From Cnuibacter physcomitrellae (GTDB taxonomy: Bacteria > Actinomycetota > Actinomycetes > Actinomycetales > Microbacteriaceae), in NCBI RefSeq assembly GCF_014640535.1, contig NZ_BMHD01000001.1:1490214-1554213 (forward strand): 64,000 bases of DNA. Direction: 5' to 3'. The notes beneath the pieces are model-generated. The model was given only the letters and a program-made list of their open reading frames with translations. It was not told where the DNA came from and ran no database searches. Position numbers and translations under genes: made by a program. This document shows positions 115 to 62,310 of this stretch, piece after piece (position 1 is the first letter of the stretch; the number at the start of each line of letters is the position of its first letter).

Positions 115-170
115 CGACTGCTCACTTTCGGCGCCATCCCTCGGGATCAGGCGCGGAAGGTGAGCAGTCG
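115..170. repeat. single GCTCACTTTC palindrome (array D family)
   Basis: The left arm CGACTGCTCACTTTC (115-129) pairs with GAAGGTGAGCAGTCG (156-170) at 14 of 15 positions. The GCTCA to TGAGC core spans 46 nt (120-165), the same as nearly all array D copies and one less than the B2 copies. It lies between two convergent genes and may act as a bidirectional terminator. Confidence 0.7.
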
Positions 171-2847: not shown

Positions 2848-5069
2848 GAGTGGCGGCCCTTCCCGCGTCGCCTCACGACGACGCCGAGTCCCAACGAGGC
2901 CACGCCCAGCGCGATCAGCGCGAGGAAGGGCACCTCGCTCGCCCCCGTGGCCGCGAGCTGCGGGGACTGCGCGGTCGGCACGGAGGCCGGCACGGGCACC
3001 GGGACCGGGACCGGCTGGGGCGCCGGGGCGAGCGCGCCCACGAATGCCTGCGCATCGATCAGACCCGCGCCGGCGACCTGCTCGGGCGTCAGCGACACGG
3101 GCGAGATGCTGGGCAGCGGCGACGCCGTCGAGGACAGGGCCGACCGCACCTGGGCGGGCGTCGCGTCCGGGTTCCGCTGCAGCCCGAGCGCCACCACCGC
3201 GGCGGCCGAGGGTGCCGCGGCCGAGGTGCCGGCGAAGGAGTAGAGGCCGGTGGAGATCTCGCCTCCGAAGAAGTCCGTGTAGCCACGGTCGACACCGGCG
3301 ATGACCGGCCCCTCCGTCACGATCGGCGTCGTCCGAGGGGTCGCGATGGGCGACACGGTCGGGTCCCAGTCGAACCAGTACGAGGCGGGTCCGGCGGAGG
3401 TGAAGGTCTCCGGGGTGCTCGTGTCCTGGGCCGAGACGGCCGCGACCGCGATGGTCTGCGGGGCGCCCTCGTGGGCCGACAGCGTGTGACCGACGACATC
3501 GTCGCCCGCCGATCGGAAGTACTCGACGGCGACGGTGTCAGGTCCGTAGAACCAGGTCTTGATGCGAGGAGTCGAGTCACCCGAGCCGATGCGCGCGATG
3601 AAGTACTGGTAGTCGCCGCTCACCATGGGGACCGCCATCTCCTGACTAGGTATCCCCGGCGCTGGGGCGAGCGTCGTGGCGACGTTCCCGTTCGGCTCGA
3701 TCAGGCCGAAGCGGATGTCGGTGGTCGCCGCTCCGAACGGCTCCGCCCACTGGAGCGCGTAGGTGGTGGGCCTCGACGAGGGGGTGGGTCCGGCGTTGGA
3801 CACCATCTGATCGAGGGTGTCGACTCCCGTCCCGGGATCAAAGTCCATGCAGGAGATCTCGGCGGTGACACCCTGCGTCCTGAACTCGTCCTGCACGGCC
3901 TGAGGGCACTCGGCGGGCCGGTAGGCCGCCGTCTCCCATCCGCTGATCGAATACCCCGCGCTCGGGTAGCCGCGGGCCCCGATGGAGCTGAAGTTGCCTG
4001 CCGCCGCGAGGTACGGGATGCCCCGGTCGGTCACCTGCTGGACCTGATAGCTGATCGGCCCGTCCTGGAACCAGGGCTCGTTGCTCAGGACGTCGTCGAC
4101 GATGACGTCGGCGCCCGCATCCGTGAGCGCGGTGATCGACTCGGAGTACTCGAGCTGGCCCGCGCCCGCGGTCGCGAACATCAGCCGCGCACCGGGGGCG
4201 ATCTGGTGCACGAGCTGCGCCATCGCCCGGCCCTCGTCGCTGCCGGAGCGGAGGGTCGACTCGCGCAGCACCTCCACCGGGGTCTCGTAGCCGCAGGGGT
4301 TGCCGGCTCCGGGGAGGAGGCCGTGGGCGACGGAACCGGCGATCTGCGTCGCCGCGTCCGGGAGCCTCGCATACGAGTCGGAGATGATCCCCACGGTCAC
4401 TCCCATGCCGTCCACGCCGAAGGCGTCCCGGGCTCCCTCGACGTTCAGCGGAGCGAGCAGATTGGCGGGGATGCTGCGGCAGTCGTCGGCGTCGGCCGCC
4501 GGTGCGGCGGCGGAGGTGGTGGCGGCGGAGGTGGTGGCGGCGGCGGCCGCGGGCGTGGCGGCCGCTGCCGGCCACGAGCCGGTCGCGGCCGCGGGCGTGG
4601 CGGCCGCTGCCGGCCACGAGCCGGTCGTGCGCGGCACGATGTCCTCGCGCACGCTGCTCACACCGGGGACCGAGGCAAGCGCCTCGAGGTCTGCCGGAGC
4701 GACGCGGACGGTCGCCATCGAGAACAGCTCGCTCGCGGCCGTCACCTCGCCGTAGGCCCTGAGCGCGTCGAAGGCCGCCGCATCCGGGCGGGTCGCGAAG
4801 GTCACCGTGACGGAGAGGCGCCCACCCGACTCGGCGATGCTGCCCGGCCCGTCGGCCACCGTCCCGAGCACGTCGGATGCTGCGGCGATCTGCTCCGCCA
4901 CGTCACCCCCGTCGGGCAGCTCGGCGATGTACTGCAGCCGCCCCGAGAGGGCGCTGCCGTCCTCCTCGGCCCCGCCGTCGTCCGCTCGCGCGGAGGCCCC
5001 TGCCGCCAGCATCGCCGCCATCACCAGCGCGGCCACACCGGCAGCCGTCCACACCCTCGTCGTCCCCAC
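2844..5069 (-). CDS. S8-like secreted serine peptidase, LAATG wall-anchored (paralogue 2)
   Basis: A 741-residue paralogue of the downstream protease with the same plan: signal peptide, prodomain, Ala/Thr-rich linker containing two copies of TGSWPAAAATPAAA, S8 fold, and LAATG plus hydrophobic tail plus RRRGKGRHS. GIISDSY carries the Asp, AAAGN the oxyanion Asn and FAGTSAAAP the Ser. DEGRAM again replaces the His-bearing HGT motif. The start chosen is GTG 5067-5069 behind AGGGGGG. An upstream ATG at 5222 is rejected because the segment between would span a terminator hairpin (5133-5174) and a duplicated nrdF tail. It is the first gene of a two-gene operon. Confidence 0.82.
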   Translation of the reverse strand: MGTTRVWTAAGVAALVMAAMLAAGASARADDGGAEEDGSALSGRLQYIAELPDGGDVAEQIAAASDVLGTVADGPGSIAESGGRLSVTVTFATRPDAAAFDALRAYGEVTAASELFSMATVRVAPADLEALASVPGVSSVREDIVPRTTGSWPAAAATPAAATGSWPAAAATPAAAAATTSAATTSAAAPAADADDCRSIPANLLAPLNVEGARDAFGVDGMGVTVGIISDSYARLPDAATQIAGSVAHGLLPGAGNPCGYETPVEVLRESTLRSGSDEGRAMAQLVHQIAPGARLMFATAGAGQLEYSESITALTDAGADVIVDDVLSNEPWFQDGPISYQVQQVTDRGIPYLAAAGNFSSIGARGYPSAGYSISGWETAAYRPAECPQAVQDEFRTQGVTAEISCMDFDPGTGVDTLDQMVSNAGPTPSSRPTTYALQWAEPFGAATTDIRFGLIEPNGNVATTLAPAPGIPSQEMAVPMVSGDYQYFIARIGSGDSTPRIKTWFYGPDTVAVEYFRSAGDDVVGHTLSAHEGAPQTIAVAAVSAQDTSTPETFTSAGPASYWFDWDPTVSPIATPRTTPIVTEGPVIAGVDRGYTDFFGGEISTGLYSFAGTSAAAPSAAAVVALGLQRNPDATPAQVRSALSSTASPLPSISPVSLTPEQVAGAGLIDAQAFVGALAPAPQPVPVPVPVPASVPTAQSPQLAATGASEVPFLALIALGVASLGLGVVVRRRGKGRHS

Positions 5070-5132
5070 CACGGGCCCCCTCGCATCACGCGGCACGCGC
5101 CGCCGGGCAAGGCTATCGGCGCCGCGACCACG

Positions 5133-5174
5133 GAAGCGCCCCGCACGAGCACTTCTGCTCACGCGGGGCGCTTC
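5133..5174 (-). terminator. 12-bp hairpin downstream of the orphan membrane gene
   Basis: GAAGCGCCCCGC (5133-5144) pairs perfectly with GCGGGGCGCTTC (5163-5174) around an 18-nt loop. It lies directly after the duplicated nrdF tail on the minus strand, where an nrdF-type terminator would be expected, and before the protease operon start. No strong T-tract follows. Confidence 0.65.
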
Positions 5175-5177
5175 AGG

Positions 5178-5204
5178 AGGGATCCCTAGAACTCCCAGCC
5201 CTCG
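5178..5204. repeat. direct repeat copy 1: duplicated nrdF 3' end
   Basis: AGGGATCCCTAGAACTCCCAG (5178-5198) is identical over 21 bp to 6109-6129. After one mismatch, CCTCG also matches. On the minus strand it encodes EGWEF-stop, compared with EDWEF-stop in nrdF. It appears to be a remnant of an nrdF tail, or one half of an insertion-associated duplication. The remaining 5205-5332 holds no gene I can support. Confidence 0.75.
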
Positions 5205-5332
5205 GCACCGCGTGGACATCATGTTCGAGCGATCCGCGAAGACATCCAGGCACGCCGCGGAGACAGCCGGAACGCCTACCGACTGAGATGGCGTGGCGAG
5301 GCAGGTGGAGCCGCGGGATCGCAGCTGCTCGG

Positions 5333-5899
5333 CTAGTCGCTGAGCGTCAGGACGGCGTCGAGCCCTCGGTCAGGGTGGTAGGTGAACTGCATCTCGACGT
5401 CGTCCCACTCCTCGGTCTGGCGGCCGTCCATGGAGGTGGTCTGCTCGATGTGCGAGACGACGGCCTGGGGAGCGTGGAGAGCTTCGAGCAGGCAGGACAG
5501 CTCCGTATAGGAGACGCCGGCGAAGTCCTCTTCACCCTTGTTGTCGATGGTGAGGGTCTCACCCTGGTCAGAGACCTCTGCGGAACCGCGGTTGTTCCCA
5601 CTGACACAGGCCTTCACGGCGTTGTCGAACACGGCGGGATTGGCGGTCGAAGTGGGCGTCGCTGCTGCGTTCGTTCCACCGGCGGCGACGGCACCCATGA
5701 CACCGACTCCGATCGCCGCGCCGACGACCAGCCCGCCGACCCAGGTGAGGAGAGGGAGCAGCCAGGGTCGCGGGCGCGCGGTGGCCGAGAGCCGTGGCGT
5801 CGAGGCAGCAGCTCCATCCGTGACCGCGGGAGCATCTGGCGCAGCCGGGTCGGGTCCGGGCTGCGTCGGCTCAGGTGTGCCCGCATCGTCGATCGTCAT
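5333..5899 (-). CDS. single-pass membrane protein, hypothetical
   Basis: 188 residues: a cytoplasmic Pro/Ala/Thr-rich N-terminus (about 50 residues), one strong transmembrane helix (LLPLLTWVGGLVVGAAIGVGVMG), then an extracytoplasmic domain of about 110 residues with two cysteines (KACVSG and ELSCLLEAL) that could form a disulphide. I do not recognise the domain. The start chosen is ATG 5897-5899 behind GGGGGAAG. It lies alone between two copies of a 21-bp nrdF-tail repeat, so it may have entered this site by insertion or duplication. No partner gene suggests a function. Confidence 0.7.
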   Translation of the reverse strand: MTIDDAGTPEPTQPGPDPAAPDAPAVTDGAAASTPRLSATARPRPWLLPLLTWVGGLVVGAAIGVGVMGAVAAGGTNAAATPTSTANPAVFDNAVKACVSGNNRGSAEVSDQGETLTIDNKGEEDFAGVSYTELSCLLEALHAPQAVVSHIEQTTSMDGRQTEEWDDVEMQFTYHPDRGLDAVLTLSD

Positions 5900-12069: not shown

Positions 12070-12085
12070 GTCGGCCGCGCTTCAT

Positions 12086-12138
12086 CACCGAATACGGCAA
12101 AGCCCCGCGTATATCGCGGGGCTTTGCCGTATTCGGTG
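12086..12138. terminator. 24-bp perfect bidirectional terminator
   Basis: A 24-bp perfect inverted repeat (12086-12109 with 12115-12138) encloses a 5-nt TATAT loop. It contains GGCAAAGCCCCGCG and its complement. It serves both the plus-strand M1 peptidase gene and the minus-strand metB gene. Confidence 0.9.
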
Positions 12139-12161
12139 TCGAAGCGACGACGATCGGCGCG

Positions 12162-16792: not shown

Positions 16793-16883
16793 GCCACTCA
16801 CGCCGCTCACCCTACGCCGCGCCGCCGACGGCCCGGCCCCTGTCCGCCGAGGGCTGACAGGCCCCCGCGCTTTCGCGGCCTTT

Positions 16884-16922
16884 CTGACCTTTCGCGCGTC
16901 CACTGACCGCGCGAAAGGTCAG
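16884..16922 (-). terminator. 15-bp perfect hairpin after the DUF4232 gene
   Basis: CTGACCTTTCGCGCG (16884-16898) pairs perfectly with CGCGCGAAAGGTCAG (16908-16922) across a 9-nt loop. It lies 25 bp past the DUF4232 stop on the minus strand. The arm core CCTTTCGC recurs in the hairpin at 50288-50347. Confidence 0.75.
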
Positions 16923-16946
16923 AGAGGCAGCGAAACCCGGGGGGGG

Positions 16947-29905: not shown

Positions 29906-29983
29906 CTCTCCACCCTAGCGGCGCGCATCCGACCCCTCGTCACGCCGGACGGCGGAGTAAGCTGAGAGCGCTGACGACCTGCC

Positions 29984-30164
29984 GCGGGAGATCCTTCTCC
30001 CGAGAAGGTGCCGTAGGAGCAAACCCTCCCCGGGAATCTCTCAGGCCCCACACCGCGGCGGCGAGGCGACTCTGGAGAACAGCGGCGTTCGACACGGCGC
30101 TTACCGAAGGTGGAAGGAGCCCCCGGGCTCCGGGGCTCTCAGGTCACAGGACAGAGCGGGGAGG
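29984..30164 (+). ncRNA. tandem glycine riboswitch upstream of L-serine dehydratase
   Basis: Two consecutive aptamers are recognisable. The first (about 29984-30079) has GCGGGAGA, then GAAGGTGCCGTAGGAGCAAA and AATCTCTCAGGCCCC, ending GACTCTGGAGA. The second (about 30085-30164) has CCGAAGGTGGAAGGAGC, GGCTCTCAGGTCACAGGAC and AGAGCGGGG. A short linker joins them, as in cooperative glycine switches. A small GCCCGG/CCGGGC stem (30172-30188) sits just before the AAGGAG ribosome site and may be the expression platform. Confidence 0.92.
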
Positions 30165-30205: not shown

Positions 30206-31591
<1,386 letters not shown>

Positions 31592-31634
31592 CCCCCTCCG
31601 CGGCCCGCGGGCGCGGTCCGCGGGCGCGAGTGCC

Positions 31635-32597
31635 GATCTGACACTCGTGGCGGCCTCGCGCTGGCGGAGGCCACCACAACTGTCATATCCGCGGCCTGAG
31701 TGGCACCCCCTGCGCTCTCTCGCACGAGAGCAGCAACGGATCTGGCACGCGTGGTGACCTCCCGCCCGACGACCCCACCACAACTGCCAGATCCAACAGC
31801 CCGATCCCACGCGGCCACCTCTCGACGCGCCTCACCAGGGCAGGCCATGGATCTGACACTCGTGGCGACCTCACACTCAAGGAGGCCACCACTACTGTCA
31901 GATCAGCGGCCCGGCTGGCGCCGCCTGCGCCCTGACCGACTAGGGCACGGATATGACACTGGTGGCGACCTTGCGCTCAAAGAGGCCACCACGACTGTCA
32001 GATCCACTGTCCGACTGGCGCCGCGTGCGCCCTCTCGGACGATGGCAGCTCACGAATCTGACACTCGTGGCGACCTACCGCCCCGTGAACCCGCCACAAC
32101 TGCCAGATCCACGAAGTCGCTCCGGCCCGACCACCCCAGGACGCACTCCCCCACCAGGGCAGCCCACGGATCTGACACTCGTGACGACTCCCGGCCCATG
32201 AACCCACCACAACTGCCAAAGCCACGAAGGCGGGCCAGCCGATCACCTCACGACGCGCTCCCCCACCAGCTAAGCCCACGGATCTGACACTCGTGACGAC
32301 CTCCCGGCCCATGAACCCACCACAACTGTCAGATCTAAGAGGCCGGCCCAGCCGATCACCTCACGATGCGCTTCCCACCAGCGCAGGCCACGGATCTGAC
32401 ACTCGTGGCGACGTCCCCGCCCATGAACCCACCACAACTGTCAGATCCGCCAGCCCGGTAACCTCGCGACACCCACCCTCACCAGAACACCCCACCGATC
32501 TGACACTCGTGGCGACCTGCCGACCGATGGACCCACCACGACTGTCAGATTTACTCGCCCCCATGGCGCCCGGCCACCTCACTCGTGGCGACCTTCC
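31635..32597. repeat. hairpin array A: nine 55-nt palindromes plus one partial
   Basis: Consensus: GATCTGACACTCGTGGCGACC, about 14 variable nt, then CCACCACAACTGTCAGATC. Copies start at 31635, 31739, 31850, 31950, 32055, 32169, 32281, 32393 and 32497; almost all are exactly 55 nt. A left-arm fragment follows at about 32578-32597. The period is 100-114 bp, and the linkers vary more than the arms. The inner arms carry fixed mismatches (CTC opposite CAAC), so the element has a direction. Copy 2 has a paired change (CTGGCA with TGCCAG). It fills the convergent gap 31592-32622, which has no gene. Confidence 0.9.
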
Positions 32598-32622: not shown

Positions 32623-33528
32623 TCAGCGGGGCGGGAGGCGGAGGGTGGGGAGAGGGCAGCCGCGGCGGCGGAGGTGCAGGGCGAGCTGGGCGAGGAGGTC
32701 GCGAGGGCTCGGGGTGAGGTCGGCGGTCGTGACACGGAGGGCGATCCAGTCGAGCGACTCGAGCTCGCGGTAGCGGGCGACGTCACGGAACCACTGACGG
32801 CGGTCGGTGCGGTGGTGGTCGCCCTCGTACTCGATCGCCACCCGGTACCGGGGATAGGAGAGGTCGGCCTTCGCCACGATGAAGCCCTCGGCCGACTGGA
32901 CGTACCCGTTCACGACCGGCTCGGGGAACCCGGCATCGACGATGGCGAGCCGCAGCGCGGTCTCGCGGGGCGAGTCGACACCGGGACGCGCCTCGGCGAG
33001 CGCACGGGCGAGCCGTGCAGCCTGGGGATGCGGATGCGCGGCGATGGACTCCGACAGGTCGGCGGCGGTGCGCGTGCTCAGCAGGTGGTCGACGACGCTC
33101 ACGAGCTGCACCCGGTCGAGGTCGGGTGCGGAGTCGCAGATCGTGCGTCCGGGAGTGCTGACCCAGAGGCCCGCGGGTACCCGCACGCGCTCGACCGCGC
33201 GCGACTGATGCCCGACGACACCGCGGATGCGCGGGGCGCGGACCGGTGCAGGCACCGTCACGTGCAGGTCGTCGCCGTCGGAGGCGGGCATCGGCAACCC
33301 CCAGAGGAGCGCCGCGGTACGGTGGCTGAAGCACGCACCCTCGGGGAGGACCGTCGAGAGCGCGACACAGCGCATCAGCAGGTCGTCGGCGAGTGCGGCC
33401 GGCACACGGACGTCGCGGTGGGGCGCCGCGAGATCGGAAGCGCGGAGCCGGCTGCGCGACAACCCCGACGTCGAGGCGCGGAACGGCCGGGCGGCGAGCC
33501 GCCGAGGGAGGGCGAGGTACCGGGTCAT
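32623..33528 (-). CDS. DUF559-type endonuclease-fold protein
   Basis: 301 residues: an N-terminal region resembling the AbiEi-type domain fold of actinobacterial orphan proteins, and a C-terminal Vsr-like DUF559 domain with VAIEYEGDHHRTDRRQWFRD followed by ESLDWIALRVT, which keeps the acidic and His positions of the PD-(D/E)XK core. Such genes occur in many unlinked copies in Microbacteriaceae, and their role is not established. ATG 33526-33528 is used. It is the first gene beyond hairpin array A and faces sdaA. Confidence 0.75.
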   Translation of the reverse strand: MTRYLALPRRLAARPFRASTSGLSRSRLRASDLAAPHRDVRVPAALADDLLMRCVALSTVLPEGACFSHRTAALLWGLPMPASDGDDLHVTVPAPVRAPRIRGVVGHQSRAVERVRVPAGLWVSTPGRTICDSAPDLDRVQLVSVVDHLLSTRTAADLSESIAAHPHPQAARLARALAEARPGVDSPRETALRLAIVDAGFPEPVVNGYVQSAEGFIVAKADLSYPRYRVAIEYEGDHHRTDRRQWFRDVARYRELESLDWIALRVTTADLTPSPRDLLAQLALHLRRRGCPLPTLRLPPR

Positions 33529-39562: not shown

Positions 39563-41743
39563 ATGCGAGGAAGGCTCAGGTCGTCGCCGCTCCGTCCGGG
39601 GTGGTCCGGCGGCGCGGCCGCGCCGTCACTGGGCGCGCCGCTGCTGGCCGCGCTGCTGCTCTGCGCGGGTGTCGTGGCGGCGATCGGCGTCGGGGCGGTC
39701 CCGGCCGCGGCCGCCGCTCCTCCGACGAGCGCCGGTCCTATCGACGGGACCGTGCTGGTACGCGGGTCGGACGGGTCGGTCCCGCTGACGCTGACCGGCA
39801 CCGCCGAACCGGGCGACGTGATCGACGCGAGCCTGACATGGCCGGGCGGCGAACTCGAGCTGTGCGCGGTGTTCGCCGCGCCCGACGGCACCTGGGCGTG
39901 CGATGACCTCCCCGCCCTCCCCGACCTGGTCGGGACGCTCGAGCTCTCGGCCGACGGCGGCGTCTTCGGCAGCGTCACGATTGGCGTGATCTCGTCACCG
40001 TCCCTGCTCGCCGACGCCGACGATCCGTCGAGGCTGACGATCGATCCTCTCGCCCCCTGGGTGAGCGGATCGGGCACCCCTGGTGCGACCGTGGTCGTCG
40101 ACGTGAGCGATGGCGACGGATGCGCGACCGCCGTCGACGCATCCGGCGCCTGGGGGTGCGACCTCGCCACGGGTGCGGCGCCTGCGGGCCGGACCGTGCG
40201 GGCGGGACAGAGCTGGGCGCTCGACCCCGCGACGATCGCGTGGGGTACGCCGGTGTCGCTGGTGAGCGGGGTGAGCACCGTGGTCGGTGCGCCGGGCGAC
40301 CCGGAGACGCCTGGCCCTGCCGGGACTGGGGGCGATCCCGGGGTGGGTTCGGCGACCGGTGGGGATGCGGGTGCCGTGGGAGGTCTCGGCGGGGTCTCGG
40401 ACGGAGGGGAGTCCGGAGCGGCCGATGAGGGGAGCCCGGCCGCCGGGCCCGGAGCGGAGGGTGCGCCCTCCTCGGGGGTCTCCGACAGCGGCGATGCTGT
40501 TCGGCTCACGCCTGTCCCGGCCGCCGATGTGCCTCCACCCGCCTCGGCGACAGGGGGCGCAGCGGGTGATCGGATCGCGGGTGCGGGTTCGAATGCGGGG
40601 GCCTTCGGGGCGGGGGCGTCCGGGGCGCGGACGTCCGCATCCACTCCCTCGTCGGTCGCGAACCCCGTGCAGAGCCCCTTCTCCGCGGAATCCGGAGGTG
40701 CGACGACCTTCGGCTCCTCGCTCCACGGCCCCGCTGCGTTCGTCGAGGCCGGCGGACCGGCCTTCGTGTTCACCGGAGCGGCGGCGCTGGGCCTCGTCCT
40801 CCTGGTCATGGTGCCCGCGGGGATGCTGGAGTCCACTCTGGAGGCGAACTCCGAGCGCCTCCGCCGCAGTGCCGCGCTGCGCTGGCTGAAGCGCCTCCCC
40901 CGCGTCCCCCGCCTGCCGTCGCGAGGGCGCGCCGGGACGGTGGTCTCGGTCGCTCTGGTCGTGACGGCGACAGCCGCGTTGGGCGCGTTCGTGGCTCCCG
41001 ACGCCGGGAGCGAGGGCGGCTTCCTGCGCCTCGCCGGCGCCTTCGTCCTGGCCTCGCTCGGGGTGAACGGGCTGGCGCTCGGCCTGATGGCGGCGGCGGC
41101 CCGGGCGAGCGGGAGCCGCCTGGAGGTGACGGCGAACGGCCGCTCCGTGTTCGTGACGGCGCTGACGGTGCTCCTCTCGCGAGCCGCGCTGCTGCAGCCG
41201 GGCTTCGTCTTCGGGGTCGCGATCGGAGCAGAGGCGACCGACCGGCGCCCGCGCACGTCGAGGCTCGTCGCCGCCGCTGGGGTCGTGGGGCTGCTCGTGG
41301 CCGGAGTGGGAGCGTGGTTCGCGCACGCCGCGCTCCTGGCGGCGGTGGGTGCGGGTGAGTCCGCGGATCCCGCCGGGAGCGCCGCTGGCGGATGGGGCTC
41401 GTTCGGAGTCGACGTGCTCACGGCGATGACAATCGAGGCCCTGACGGGAGCGGTCGTCGCGATGATCCCGCTGCGGTTCTTCGCCGGAGCGGAGCTCTGG
41501 CGCGGGGCGCGCACGGCGTGGGCGGCGCTGGCCGCGCTCACCGCTGCGGCCGCGATGGCGGCGCTGGCGCCCCTGCCCTCCGCCTGGAACGCGGTGGGCG
41601 GCGACACCGCGCGCTGGCTCCTCGCGTTCGCCGCCGTCACCGCGCTCACCGCCGCGGTGTGGTGCTGGTTCCGCTTCGTCCCGGAGCGCACCACCGCTCC
41701 CGCGGGCCGCCACCGCACCCCGCGCCACCGCCCCGCCCACTGA
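39563..41743 (+). CDS. large secreted/multipass membrane protein of unknown function
   Basis: 726 residues in three parts: a signal-peptide-like N-terminus and two Ig-like modules of about 80 residues, each with a paired C...WxC motif (LELCAVFAAPDGTWACD and GDGCATAVDASGAWGCD); a Gly/Ala/Ser/Pro-rich linker (about 245-400); and about seven hydrophobic helices to the C-terminus. I do not recognise the membrane domain. TAGCAT lies 6 nt before the ATG, which suggests a leaderless transcript. Codon use matches its neighbours. It could display the Ig-like modules outside the cell. Confidence 0.75.
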   Translation: MRGRLRSSPLRPGWSGGAAAPSLGAPLLAALLLCAGVVAAIGVGAVPAAAAAPPTSAGPIDGTVLVRGSDGSVPLTLTGTAEPGDVIDASLTWPGGELELCAVFAAPDGTWACDDLPALPDLVGTLELSADGGVFGSVTIGVISSPSLLADADDPSRLTIDPLAPWVSGSGTPGATVVVDVSDGDGCATAVDASGAWGCDLATGAAPAGRTVRAGQSWALDPATIAWGTPVSLVSGVSTVVGAPGDPETPGPAGTGGDPGVGSATGGDAGAVGGLGGVSDGGESGAADEGSPAAGPGAEGAPSSGVSDSGDAVRLTPVPAADVPPPASATGGAAGDRIAGAGSNAGAFGAGASGARTSASTPSSVANPVQSPFSAESGGATTFGSSLHGPAAFVEAGGPAFVFTGAAALGLVLLVMVPAGMLESTLEANSERLRRSAALRWLKRLPRVPRLPSRGRAGTVVSVALVVTATAALGAFVAPDAGSEGGFLRLAGAFVLASLGVNGLALGLMAAAARASGSRLEVTANGRSVFVTALTVLLSRAALLQPGFVFGVAIGAEATDRRPRTSRLVAAAGVVGLLVAGVGAWFAHAALLAAVGAGESADPAGSAAGGWGSFGVDVLTAMTIEALTGAVVAMIPLRFFAGAELWRGARTAWAALAALTAAAAMAALAPLPSAWNAVGGDTARWLLAFAAVTALTAAVWCWFRFVPERTTAPAGRHRTPRHRPAH

Positions 41744-41749
41744 CCCGAC

Positions 41750-42543
41750 CTCGAGTGGCGGGTTTCCGCCCTGAGATGCGCCGAGGAAGGGCGGGATCTC
41801 GCGACTCGAGGGTCCCACCCGCGCCTAGGGGTGGCGGGATCGAGAGCTCACTTTCAGCACACGTTCGCGCGCAGATCGCGCCGAAAGTGAGCACAGGATG
41901 CTGCAACGACGTGGACCACGCCCCCTCCGTCCTCGCGTGGCGAGATCCAGCCCTGAAATGCGCCATGGAGGGGCCAAATCTCGCTACTCGGGGGATACAT
42001 GTCCGCACCCAGGCTCGCGGGCTCGAACGCTCACTTTCGTTATTCATCCGCGCCAAGATCGCGCCGAAAGTGAGCACAGGATGCAGCGACGACGAGGACC
42101 ACGCCCCGTACGTGCCCGCGAGTCGCGAGGATCCGCCCTGAGATGCGCCCCCGAAGGGCAGGATCCCGCGACTCGTGGGGGACCTCCGCACGCGGGGGGC
42201 GCGGGATCGAGAGCTCACTTTCGGCACACGGTCGCGCGCAGATCGCGCCGAAAGTGGGCACAGGATGCAGGGACGACGAGGGCCACGCAGCGTACGCGCC
42301 CTCGAGTCGCGAGGATCTGCCCTGAGATGGGCCCTCGAAGGGCAGGATCCCGCGACTCGAGGGGGCACCTGCGCACGCGGGGGCGCGGGATCGAGAGCTC
42401 ACGTTCGGCGCGCGTTCGCTGGCAGACCGCGCCGAAAGTGAGCTCAGGATGTCGCCTCGACGAGGGCCTCGATGGGGACGACCTCGAGTCGAGAGAATGC
42501 GCCCTGAGATGCGCCGCGGGAGGGCGGGATCTCGCCGCTCGAG
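41750..42543. repeat. hairpin array B: alternating 61-nt (B1) and 47-nt (B2) palindromes
   Basis: B1 (CTCGAGTCGCGAGGATCTGCC ... complement) starts at 41750, 41932, 42117, 42301 and 42483; every copy is exactly 61 nt. B2 (GCTCACTTTC, 27 nt, GAAAGTGAGC) starts at 41846, 42029, 42213 and 42397; every copy is exactly 47 nt. They alternate strictly B1-B2 with a 182-185 bp period, and the array begins and ends with B1. The B2 arms match array D and the singleton at 115-170. It fills the convergent gap 41744-42573, which has no gene. Confidence 0.92.
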
Positions 42544-42573
42544 GAAGGACGACCACACCGCGGAGCGCGAGCG

Positions 42574-43356
42574 TCAGCGGACGAGGCGGGCGATCTCGCG
42601 GGCGAGGGGTGGACGCACGAAGTGGTCGGCGCCGCGGACCTCGTGGAGGGTGACGTGGTGCATCACGCCCAGCGCCTGGACCGGTCCGGGGACGATGACC
42701 TGGTCGCGCGAGCCGTAGACGATCTCCACCGGCACGGCGACCTGGGCGACGTCGGTCATCGTCGTCTGCTGCTCGATGCAGTTCTGCATCGAGAGCGCGA
42801 ACGCCTGCCACGTGACGTCGTCGAGCTGCGGGCCCCGCACGTGGAGCAGCTCGCGCACCCGCCCCAGCGTGCCGAGCGCGCGACCCTTGTCCTCCCGCAC
42901 GTAGCGGTAGAACGCCAGGTAGCCGCCTACGCGCATCCGCGCGACCCTCTCCTGGATGTAGCGGGCGTGCGGGTAGATGGGCGGCGAGGCGAGGATGAGG
43001 TGCTCGACGGAACGCCGGTGCACGGCCGCATAGCGGGCCGAGATCAGCGCTCCCAGGCTGTGACCGATGAGGGTGAAGCGCCCTGGCAGGTGGAGGCCGA
43101 CCAGGGTGCGATGCAGGGCCGCGACATGCTCGTCGAGGGTGAACATCGTCTCGGGGCGGGCGACCGACGCGCCGAACCCGAGGACGTCGATGGCGATCAC
43201 GCGATAGAGCGGGGTGAGCAGCGGGATCGTCGCCTCCCAGCTGGCCGACGAGGACGCGATGCCGTGGACGAGCACCACGACCGGCCCCTCCCCCTCGTCG
43301 ACCGCGACGTGCAGCCGGGGAGCGGCGTCGCGCAGGGTCCGCCCGAACAGCCTCAT
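42574..43356 (-). CDS. alpha/beta-fold hydrolase
   Basis: 260 residues with oxyanion HG motif VLVHGIASSSASWE, the nucleophile elbow GHSLGA (Ser near 111), an acidic residue in IVYGSRDQVIVPG and the catalytic His in RGADHFVRPP. The substrate is unknown; the fold includes esterases, lactonases and C-C hydrolases. The start is ATG 43354-43356, as the upstream in-frame stretch overlaps the divergent ABC promoter. It faces hairpin array B. Confidence 0.88.
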   Translation of the reverse strand: MRLFGRTLRDAAPRLHVAVDEGEGPVVVLVHGIASSSASWEATIPLLTPLYRVIAIDVLGFGASVARPETMFTLDEHVAALHRTLVGLHLPGRFTLIGHSLGALISARYAAVHRRSVEHLILASPPIYPHARYIQERVARMRVGGYLAFYRYVREDKGRALGTLGRVRELLHVRGPQLDDVTWQAFALSMQNCIEQQTTMTDVAQVAVPVEIVYGSRDQVIVPGPVQALGVMHHVTLHEVRGADHFVRPPLAREIARLVR

Positions 43357-43469
43357 GACGACAGTATCGCAGAACCGAGGATCACTCATCCAGCGCAGAC
43401 CCATCGAAGCGCCGGAGACCAGGCAAACTCCCCGTCGCGCCAACGCCTCGGGACTGAGACCATGGACCC

Positions 43470-50222: not shown

Positions 50223-50287
50223 CGGCTCGCGGCACGCGGCTCGCGGCCCCCGCACCCCGCCCGCGCCGCCTCGCGCGCCCTGCGTTC

Positions 50288-50347
50288 CGCCATGCTGTTG
50301 GCCTTTCGCCACCCGCATGCACGTGGCGAAAGGTCACGAGCATGGCG
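50288..50347. terminator. 60-nt two-part hairpin, bidirectional terminator
   Basis: The outer stem CGCCATGCT (50288-50296) pairs with AGCATGGCG (50339-50347). The inner stem CCTTTCGCCAC (50302-50312) pairs perfectly with GTGGCGAAAGG (50323-50333). It lies between the convergent ppx-type and LigD-type genes. Confidence 0.8.
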
Positions 50348-50376
50348 AAAGGGAGGGAAGGGGTGGCGGGGGCGGG

Positions 50377-52536: not shown

Positions 52537-52593
52537 CGAGTGCTCACGTCCCGCGTGATCCTGGCGCGGATGCCGCCAGGAATGAGCGCTCGA
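52537..52593. repeat. single GCTCA palindrome (array D family)
   Basis: TCGAGTGCTCACGTCC on the left and GGAATGAGCGCTCGA on the right. GCTCA (52542) to TGAGC (52587) spans 46 nt, the array D length. An inner stem CTGGCG/CGCCAG adds pairing. It lies between tRNA-Met and the TrmH-type gene, a tandem rather than convergent junction. Confidence 0.7.
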
Positions 52594-52669: not shown

Positions 52670-52743
52670 TAGCGGGAGCGGGACTTGAACCCGCGACCCC
52701 ACGATTATGAGCCGTGTGCTCTAACCAACTGAGCTATCCCGCC
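52670..52743 (-). tRNA. tRNA-Met (CAU), elongator type
   Basis: The 74-nt cloverleaf has acceptor GGCGGGA with TCCCGCT, D-arm GCTCAGTTGGTTAGAGC, anticodon loop CTCATAA (CAT) and T-arm GGGTTCAAGTCCC. The body matches elongator Met rather than initiator, which would have GGG/CCC in the anticodon stem. A lysidine-modified Ile tRNA is a less likely reading. Confidence 0.92.
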
Positions 52744-52772
52744 ACGGTCGTCTTCGGCGAACCGGAGACCGG

Positions 52773-52844
<72 letters not shown>

Positions 52845-54848: not shown

Positions 54849-54966
54849 CGCGCGCGTCGCGCTCCCCCGCGCGTGCGTGTGCGTGTGCGTGCGGGGGAGC
54901 GCGGCTGTTCACGTGAGGGCGGTGCGTCGTGCGCGGGTGGGGCGCACCCGCCCGTCGGGCGAGCCC

Positions 54967-55800
54967 GAGCACACCCGGAACCCGCGGCGTCCGACGCGGC
55001 CCGGCCGCGCTTCCTGGGTGTGCTCACTCCCGCACCGCTCCGGTGAACCGCGCCGCACGGCCGCCGGGTGCGTCAGCCCGGCGGAGGAGCCCGGGCACAC
55101 CCACAAGCCGCGGCTCCCGAGGCCGCCGGGCCGCGCTTCCCGGGTGTGCTCGATCCCGATCCGCTCCGGTAGACCGCGACGCGCCGTACCGCACGGCCGT
55201 CCGGGTGCGTCAGCCCGTCGGACGAGCCTGAGCGCACCGAGAACCGGCGGCTTCCGGAGCTGCCCGGCCGCGCTTCCCGGGTGTGCTCGATCCTGATTCG
55301 CTCCGGCAGATCGCGCCGCACGGCCGCCCGGGCGCGTCAGCCGGCGGACCCGCCCGAGCACACCCAGAACCCGCGGCTTCCGAGGCCGCCCGGCCGCGCT
55401 TCCTGGGTGTGCTCGATCCCGATCCGTTCCAGTGGAACGCGCCGCACCGCGCCGCGCGGCCGGCCGGGTGCGTCAGCCCGTCGGACGAATCTGAGCGCAC
55501 CCGGAAGCCGCGGCTTCCTAGGCCGCCCGGCCACGCATCCCGGGTGTGCTCGATCCCGCCCCGCTCCGACGGACCGCGCCACGCCGCACGGCCGCCCGGG
55601 TACTTCAGCCCGGCGGACCCGCCCGAGCACACCCAGAAGCCACGGCTTCCAAGGCTCCCGTGCCGCGGTTCCTGGGTGTGCTCGATCCGGCCGCGCCGTG
55701 CCGCATGGCCGCCGGCGTGCGTCAGCCCGGCGGATGCGGCCGAGCACACCCAGAAGCCGCGGGACGCGGGGACGCTCAGCCGCGCTTTCCGGGTGCACTC
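54967..55800. repeat. hairpin array C: seven 59-nt palindromes
   Basis: Consensus: GAGCACACCCAGAAGCCGCG, about 19 nt, then CGCTTCCTGGGTGTGCTC. Copies start at 54967, 55093, 55230, 55356, 55493, 55625 and 55742; every one is exactly 59 nt. The period is 117-137 bp. The linkers also share GATCCCGATCCGCTCC and GTGCGTCAGCCCG. Copies 4 and 6 have a CAG/CTG pair where copy 5 has CGG/CCG, a covariation; several other changes give G-T pairs. It fills the convergent gap 54849-55851, which has no gene. Confidence 0.92.
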
Positions 55801-61773: not shown

Positions 61774-62310
61774 CGAGAGCTCACTTCCGGCGCCACGTCT
61801 CGCGCGATGGCGCGGAAAGTGAGCACTCGAGGAGTTGGGGGGGGGTTCCCTCGAGGGCCGCACGCACCTCACGGGTCCATCGAGCGCTCAGTATTGGCGC
61901 CACCTCTCGCGCGGAGGCGCGGGAAGTGAGCACTCGAGCAATCGCGCGGGATTAGCCCGGGCACGGCACGCACGCCATGGGGGTGTCGAGTGCTCAATAA
62001 CGGCACCAACTCCCCCACAAAGGTGCAGGAACTGAGCACTCGAGAAATGGCCGGGTTACCCCGCGCACCGCACGCACCCCATCGGGCAGCGAGTGCTCAG
62101 TAAAAGCACCAGCTCCCCGGGAAGGTGCAGAAAGTGAGCGCTCAAGAAATCTCCGGGGCATTTGAGCGCCGCGCGTACGCCGCGGGGGCATCGAACGCTC
62201 AGTAATGGCGCCACCTCCCCCGCGAAGGCGTGGAAAGTGAGCACTCGAGGAATCGCGCGGTCAGCTGGCGCGCCGCGTTTCTCGCGCGAAGGCTCGGGAG
62301 GTGAGCACCC
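61774..62310. repeat. hairpin array D: five 45-46-nt palindromes plus one partial
   Basis: Consensus: CGAGTGCTCAGTAATGGCGCC ... GGAAAGTGAGCACTCGAG. GCTCA-to-TGAGC cores start at 61779, 61886, 61992, 62095 and 62197 and span 46, 46, 46, 45 and 46 nt. The period is 102-107 bp. A right-hand fragment lies at about 62268-62310. Copies 2-5 share a left-arm GTAAT-type block that does not pair with the right-arm AAAGT, so the mismatch is conserved. It fills the convergent gap 61747-62349, which has no gene. Confidence 0.9.

Follow-up and report, generated by a model that had tools for sequence, protein, structure and literature searches.

REP/REPIN-RAYT systems and BIMEs are described in the accounts of PMC3733652 and PMC3116915 as short dispersed palindromes that are genome-specific, mostly located 3′ of genes, in gaps of convergent or co-directional gene pairs, and grouped in clusters or tandem runs, with a cognate gene that is itself flanked by the repeats. 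CGTC-tagged REPs, which are also dispersed palindromes, have stems of 8-9 bp, loops of 4-5 nt and an unpaired CGTC tag, and as far as the former account goes they apparently have no dedicated transposase (PMC3733652). Among homing endonucleases, I-Bth0305I is presented in a review as a dimer whose target is nearly 60 bp long (PMC3943268). The repeats analysed here, from the actinobacterium Cnuibacter physcomitrellae, resemble REPs and BIMEs with their RAYT in having many dispersed extragenic copies, mainly at the 3′ ends of genes. A gene is flanked by the repeats here too, but it encodes a nuclease of another family, with a putative role in mobility. The repeats differ in size (57-63 nt as against 20-40), in carrying paired YGAG...CTCR ends in place of an unpaired GTAG tag, and in their partner, a Vsr/EDxHD-type nuclease. 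No unpaired GTAG or CGTC tag was found at the ends of the two palindrome families described below, the conserved ends being paired, and arms of up to ~24 nt with paired ends further distinguish them from CGTC REPs. An earlier note on this DNA had likened the locus to BIMEs and suggested looking for a RAYT (TnpA-REP) gene. The likeness holds for the kind of repeat (dispersed extragenic palindromes) but not for the family, the ends being paired, with no unpaired tag, and PF01797 (Y1 transposase, RAYT) having no match genome-wide in a search that was positive in 5 of 14 control genomes, E. coli included. Since PF01797 is absent from the genome, a RAYT-mediated BIME was ruled out. To ask for a cognate mobility gene was nonetheless the right question, although the linked gene is the nuclease and not a RAYT.

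The locus, array B, lies in a 64,000-nt stretch (the window) of a genome of six contigs and 4.35 Mb in total, whose closest named relatives, as judged from NusG, are for the most part Herbiconiux (73-80% identity). It occupies the whole gap between two convergent genes, has no called gene between its palindromes, and consists of five type-1 and four type-2 palindromes in strict alternation (Table 1). Nine palindromes scoring at least 11 lie within it, whereas 100 dinucleotide shuffles contained 0.47 on average and never more than 2, and Tandem Repeats Finder reports a period of 184 with 4.3 copies; the array is thus real. The start spacings (182, 185, 184 and 182 for type 1; 183, 184 and 184 for type 2) agree with the strict alternation, with type 1 first and last, and with the period of 182-185 bp that had been read from the sequence, the start-to-start distances of the 57-nt cores alternating between 89-90 and 93-95 bp. 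The unit length of 61 nt originally given for type 1 had to be corrected to 63 nt, that is, a 57-nt core with three conserved bases per side; the 47 nt given for type 2 is accurate for the palindrome, which, however, forms the interior of a 57-nt element. Pairwise identity between units is 71-92% for type 1 and 72-94% for type 2. A coding repeat is unlikely because none of the spacings of 182, 184 and 185 is divisible by 3, and the frame is lost from unit to unit. Within the array no Rfam match reached gathering level, those below cut-off being to microRNA hairpin models only, and no related array was found among 72,556 plasmid records. Matches to array-B DNA in 6 other genomes, among 150 of the family, were short and weak; those inspected lay in or beside coding sequence and were taken as chance.

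Table 1. Positions of the main features; coordinates are those of the window except where prefixed with C1.
Feature	Coordinates	Strand	Remarks
Left flanking gene, ends at array B	39563..41743	+	726 aa; Big_6 match below cut-off
Array B, five type-1 and four type-2 palindromes	41744..42573	.	
Type-1 palindrome unit 1	41749..41811	.	57-nt core 41752-41808
Type-2 element unit 1	41841..41897	.	47-nt palindrome 41846-41892
Type-1 palindrome unit 2	41931..41993	.	
Type-2 element unit 2	42024..42080	.	palindrome 42029-42075
Type-1 palindrome unit 3	42116..42178	.	
Type-2 element unit 3	42208..42264	.	palindrome 42213-42259
Type-1 palindrome unit 4	42300..42362	.	
Type-2 element unit 4	42392..42448	.	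palindrome 42397-42443
Type-1 palindrome unit 5	42482..42544	.	
Right flanking gene, ends at array B	42574..43380	-	alpha/beta hydrolase
Array A, GGATCTGACACTCGTGG palindromes	31632..32550	.	called 53-69 nt; 3′ of nuclease 32623-33528, between convergent genes
Window nuclease, adjoins array A	32623..33528	-	predicted AbiEi-like and Vsr/EDxHD-like domains
Array D, five type-2 elements	61774..62247	.	102-110 bp apart, between convergent genes
Single type-2 element	115..170	.	
Single type-2 element	52537..52592	.	downstream of minus-strand tRNA genes 52670-52844
Type-2-linked nuclease gene	C1:1767188-1768189		type-2 array upstream, two type-2 elements downstream

Many further copies of both families came to light when the window was searched with a profile together with 20 stretches of this genome, the majority of which had been chosen around weak matches. 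Covariance models were then available from 24 type-1 copies (R1) and 31 type-2 copies (R2), and on both strands they matched at least 102 times for type 1 and at least 139 times for type 2 genome-wide, the best 150 first-look candidates being scored. When matches with E below 0.001 are merged across strands and array B is counted once per type, type 1 occupies at least 49 sites at 30 loci (best E 7e-17) and type 2 at least 68 sites at 29 loci (best E 2e-13), with more than one unit at six type-1 and 17 type-2 loci. As judged with a simple gene caller, the type-1 loci are 18 convergent, 9 tandem, 1 divergent and 2 apparently coding, and the type-2 loci 11 convergent, 14 tandem, 1 divergent, 2 apparently coding and 1 at an edge. 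With one copy per locus aligned in register, columns within the 57 nt carry on average 0.89 bits of information in type 1 (30 loci) and 0.67 in type 2 (29 loci), as compared with 0.11-0.16 bits in the 30-nt flanks, and conservation extends no more than 1-3 bases outside the elements. Because information falls so sharply at the 57-nt ends, type 1 and type 2 are discrete, sharp-ended elements in unrelated surroundings. Strict alternation is no general rule: the two types occur mostly at separate loci, array B being counted in both the 30 and the 29. Since type 1 and type 2 mostly occur apart, array B appears to stem from a single neighbouring type-1/type-2 pair, which would have been duplicated in tandem. 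A second alternating array, of type 1 with a GCGGGTTGCGCCCGC palindrome at ~190 bp, lies between convergent genes at L020:8762-9592 (C1:86761-87591).

The outer three base pairs of type 1 are intact in 19-22 of 21-23 copies. Compensatory change in the arms of both types within the genome is weak, only slightly above that in shuffles; within-family conservation therefore looks like that of conserved half-sites and not of pairing, and selection for an RNA hairpin within this genome was set aside as an explanation.

The length of 57 nt recurs well beyond this genome. In 104 loci of Microbacteriaceae chosen irrespective of repeats (80 around nusG and 24 at fixed positions), the non-coding palindromes contain 97 symmetric YGAG/CTCR pairs, of which 31 have a span of exactly 57 nt, the next most frequent span occurring 6 times; when all 64 trinucleotides were compared, none of the others gave a peak above 10. 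Some of these YGAG 57-mers are common to sister species, so that the cases are partly non-independent. A 57-nt peak in raw palindrome lengths owes part of its height to a 122-bp Cryobacterium array of a different type (GGTTGAGC.../GGTCGAAACC), which leaves the YGAG/CTCR test unaffected. Across genera the palindrome arms vary, while the length and the YGAG...CTCR ends are constant.

The partner gene emerged from pairs of similar 57-mers separated by ~1.0 kb. Six loci from five genera have such a pair (Planctomonas L092, Lacisediminihabitans L103, Cryobacterium luteum L104, Rhodoglobus L121, and Glaciihabitans L130 and L153), and the ORFs enclosed there are homologous, ~300 residues long where intact, and of the same nuclease family in all six. 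At L103:383-521 long C/G runs with N lie near the element, probably an assembly gap. A tblastn search with these ORFs over the fetched loci returned 30 rows, or 26 distinct genes (L158, L163 and L173 repeat L016, and L193 repeats L225), among them the window gene 32623-33528 and C1:1767188-1768189. The nuclease profile is positive in 109 of 150 genomes of the family and in 64 of 85 genera, with 1-11 matches each. Of 29 loci picked by protein match alone, 21 have a palindrome (score at least 12, within 350 bp) on each side of the gene and 28 have one on at least one side, as compared with 27 and 155 of 400 control genes under the same criteria. Seven of the 29 repeat earlier loci (L242, L243, L244, L245, L249, L252 and L255), L245 being moreover cut short, with one palindrome counted twice; among the remaining 22, both sides carry a palindrome in 15 and either side in 21, and in 15 of 19 the left-right match exceeds the 95th percentile for cross-locus pairs. 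The 77 complete nuclease genes, a set that includes the six seed loci, have at a score of at least 11 (controls having been scored at 12 and above only) a palindrome on the left in 61 cases, on the right in 54, on both sides in 46 and on either side in 69, leaving eight with none. Around nuclease genes, symmetric YGA...TCR spans are most often 57 nt (40 times), then 58 (14) and 67 (7).

The two palindromes of a gene are moreover related to each other. Left and right copies match (score at least 20) in 33 of the 46 genes flanked on both sides, as compared with 15 of 2070 cross-gene pairs, and no left-right match was seen in the other 13; the matched pairs are 14 direct, 7 inverted and 12 undecided. 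The whole palindrome-gene-palindrome element has a median length of 1110 bp. In eight genes the stop codon is the TGA of the opening TGAG. The more similar two of the nucleases are, the more similar are the arms of their palindromes (Mantel r 0.32, with 0 of 300 permutations as high, for 59 genes), a correlation to which shared ancestry may add, the association samples being unthinned by clade. At the level of the phylum, the nuclease protein is present in 59 of 296 genomes at E<=1e-20. Left-right matches scoring at least 15 occurred, as raw counts over 29 phylum loci, in 2 of 3 loci from the family, 2 of 4 from the order, 5 of 6 from the class and 5 of 16 from the wider phylum, with exact 57-mers at three class-level loci (L280, L281 and L283). 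The association of nuclease and palindrome is strong; action of the nuclease on the palindrome is inferred.

The fold of the protein was predicted with AlphaFold from 16 window and related-locus sequences (pLDDT 83, the first 45 residues being of low confidence); a single-sequence model, with pLDDT 41.7, was not used. Domains were assigned by VIA-align Z-scores, Foldseek having returned no match at E<=0.001. In the predicted model residues ~184-292 resemble the catalytic domain of I-Bth0305I, an EDxHD homing endonuclease and the best structural match of this domain (Z 12.0, 96 aligned residues, 2.6 A), and the fold is common with Vsr over ~100 residues (Z 10.4); the same domain also matches two mitoribosome proteins from Toxoplasma, at Z 9.8-10. 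Residues ~48-181 resemble the AbiEi antitoxin 6y8q (Z 11.7) and MenT1 nucleotidyltransferase toxins (Z 8.5-9.1). In sequence profiles the match to I-Bth0305I (PDB name 'Mobile intron protein') is weak at E 0.005, NCBIfam returned no family name for the protein, and of 19 members searched in Pfam at E<=0.01, 12 matched DUF559 and 10 MTES_1575, mostly below cut-off; in ten proteins scanned against the cut-offs, DUF559 was exceeded by three and MTES_1575 by none. In the 19 members E189, D222 and D249 are invariant and H239 is found in at least 90%; these may correspond to the EDxHD active-site residues. The protein is thus predicted to combine an AbiEi-like middle domain with a Vsr/EDxHD homing-type nuclease domain, the former being an antitoxin domain that would here be fused to a nuclease. 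The predicted nuclease fold is that of Vsr mismatch endonucleases, DUF559 and MTES_1575, with weak Pfam scores, and we know of no link of any of these families to palindromes. Open-access PMC text yielded, among the matches listed, no description of these palindromes or of a DUF559/Vsr-like link, and no paper joining DUF559, repeats and transposition.

I-Bth0305I comes from a group I intron of a phage. The gene studied here is, by contrast, free-standing, often lies between two complete palindromes and encodes the additional AbiEi-like domain. It also departs from homing endonuclease genes in that it does not interrupt its own putative target: wherever both sides are occupied (46 of 77), each side has its own palindrome, and the gene splits none. 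The target of I-Bth0305I, near 60 bp, is a striking parallel to the 57-bp palindrome, though not a proof.

Six homologs of the nuclease are present in the genome of C. physcomitrellae. The type-2 family flanks its own nuclease gene (C1:1767188-1768189), while the window homolog has palindromes on one side only (Table 1). The homologs at C1:1093445 and 3473447 (L334 and L335) lie between their own matched, near-perfect palindromes (TTTGTCCAGGTTTCCGTCGCG; TTTCGCCACACTCAGGTGG), which run to 60-86 nt; not every family therefore keeps to 57 nt. These four homologs are 32-43% mutually identical and carry four different palindrome families. The two weakest, at 1318782 and 146848, have one nearby palindrome at most. 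Type-1 palindromes were found beside none of the six. However, R1, which was built from type-1 copies of this genome only, matches 42 places in 20 other genomes of the family, and at least nine of these places, in at least eight genomes, have a nuclease gene no more than 350 bp away; R2 has matches in only four other genomes. Because R1 places elsewhere adjoin nuclease genes, type 1 belongs to the same class of palindromes, and here it is most likely an orphan whose own nuclease has been lost or goes unrecognised. R1 matches inside nusG of relatives fall within coding sequence and were taken as chance.

A comparison of Cryobacterium species bears on mobility. In six of them (L094, L098, L099, L109, L111 and L156) two convergent coding ends, stop codons included, are 28 bp apart; in C. 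luteum the same gap measures 1274 bp and contains three flanking palindromes and an interrupted nuclease gene (homology 4785-5728, open frame 5132-5680). The gap is 121 bp in L113, 8 bp in L157 and 1.9-2.0 kb in L097, L127 and L137, and no flank pair was found within 4 kb in L100 and L145. The C. luteum junctions differ from those of its relatives by extra bases, and no precise empty site was found. This shows that the gene-bearing element is present or absent between Cryobacterium species, without indicating a mechanism. Classical IS and MITEs have terminal inverted repeats with a target-site duplication; here palindromes lie at both ends of elements of ~1.1 kb, and no target-site duplication was seen by eye in the flanks, a transposon that duplicates its target being set aside on that inspection. 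No case of movement of a solo palindrome was caught. In a separate comparison of two close Cryobacterium species, one convergent gap holds six 122-bp units in the one (L137:17509-18176) and a single unit in the other (L145:17661-17717); these are of the GGTTGAGC...GGTCGAAACC type, not of the YGAG class, and the unit number of such an array thus varies between species.

Array B is probably a tandem expansion of a neighbouring REP-like pair, its palindromes being part of a two-part nuclease/palindrome mobile system. Such a system would comprise a nuclease gene between two copies of its own palindrome (~1.1 kb) and many gene-free solo palindromes. A nuclease dimer would recognise both half-sites of the 57-bp palindrome, a fixed distance apart, and break the DNA; repair may then carry copies of the palindrome to new sites, either alone or together with the gene. 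Such copies would persist mainly downstream of genes, where a hairpin may be harmless or may aid the ending of transcripts: long gene-end hairpins may assist termination and would therefore be tolerable or useful. Local arrays could then expand by slippage or unequal exchange. More tentatively, one may go further and see in these elements a new class of mobile DNA, in which a free-standing homing-type nuclease spreads a 57-bp palindrome that is both its target and the transposing unit; this class would be an independently arisen analogue of REP/RAYT, with representatives in other actinobacteria besides most of the Microbacteriaceae sampled, and would have given rise to array B as a by-product.

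Alternatively, the palindromes could be the ends or recombination sites of a cassette moved by another enzyme (a tyrosine or serine recombinase, or a transposase acting in trans), the nuclease being cargo with, for instance, a role in defence or addiction. The palindrome-gene-palindrome layout is indeed cassette-like, and PADLOC models of AbiEi, the antitoxin of the AbiE defence system, match three of the four members tested. Integron attC sites, too, are imperfect palindromes of similar size with variable middles that occur in arrays; no attC core motif was noticed here, and array B has no called genes between its palindromes. We consider a cassette of this sort unlikely: the enclosed gene is this very nuclease in 6/6 loci that were found via palindrome pairs, and the sequence of the palindrome tracks that of the nuclease, which suits direct recognition.

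Less likely still, the palindromes would be bidirectional terminators or 3′-end stabilisers of the host, with arrays that insulate more, spread by ordinary recombination and having the nuclease as a frequent neighbour. This would be in keeping with their location, since palindrome density in 80 named loci around nusG is highest in convergent gaps (2.42 per kb, as compared with 0.92 in tandem gaps, 0.14 in divergent gaps and 0.095 in coding sequence) and 29 of the 59 type-1 and type-2 loci are convergent; RNA folding of the units also gave z of -2.4 to -7.0 in seven foldings. A 3′-end location is as much to be expected of harmless terminators as of mobile elements, which counts against the nuclease-driven reading. 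Terminators, however, need neither an exact span of 57 nt nor sharp ends common to ~30 loci, the 3′ arms of type 2 as read from the sequence have A-runs and not T-runs, and both the matched pairs around one protein family and the tracking of palindrome by nuclease would be left unexplained.

It is improbable, on the other hand, that the AbiEi-like domain binds the palindromes simply to regulate its own gene, solo copies being decoys or targets of a regulon, with no movement driven by the nuclease. AbiEi proteins do autoregulate by binding inverted repeats, and palindromes are found close to the gene both upstream and downstream. However, only 2 of the 59 type-1 and type-2 loci are divergent, and in 31 of 54 genes the stop codon lies inside the right palindrome or within 8 nt of it, an odd position for an operator. 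That slippage merely produced a locus-specific satellite, with resemblances elsewhere due to chance in a GC-rich genome, is hardly credible: array B is a clear tandem repeat with no relative in the plasmid records, but copies of both types at 30 and 29 loci, at E values down to 7e-17 and 2e-13, contradict it.

The two-part nuclease/palindrome system that we favour would bear on a wider problem, as no mobilising enzyme has been known for REP-like repeats outside the GTAG/RAYT group. Here such repeats are paired, across a large bacterial group, with a single nuclease family that is positive in 109 of 150 genomes, and the occurrence of palindromes beside one predicted nuclease family in many related bacteria suggests that these are mobile DNA of a new and very small kind. 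If the nuclease does spread the palindromes, homing endonucleases would also drive dispersed repeats, thereby linking homing and transposition. The 57-nt rule and the many nuclease-palindrome pairs point to readers of long DNA targets whose recognition might be decoded by comparison, and a candidate function is offered for many unnamed DUF559-type genes.

The window contains several other features. Array C (54950-55795), which lies between convergent genes, consists of GAGCACACCC...GGGTGTGCTC palindromes of ~61 nt at a spacing of ~117-138 bp and has a single relative, at L027:18303-18399. Intergenic palindromes of further types, long and near-perfect (CACCGAATACGGCAAAGCCCCGC; AAAGGTC/GACCTTT), are found at 12071-12153, 16862-16944 and 50266-50369, and similar ones recur in other sampled stretches. 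Finally, a glycine riboswitch aptamer (Rfam, 52.7 bits) is located at 29975-30065, upstream of the gene starting at 30206.
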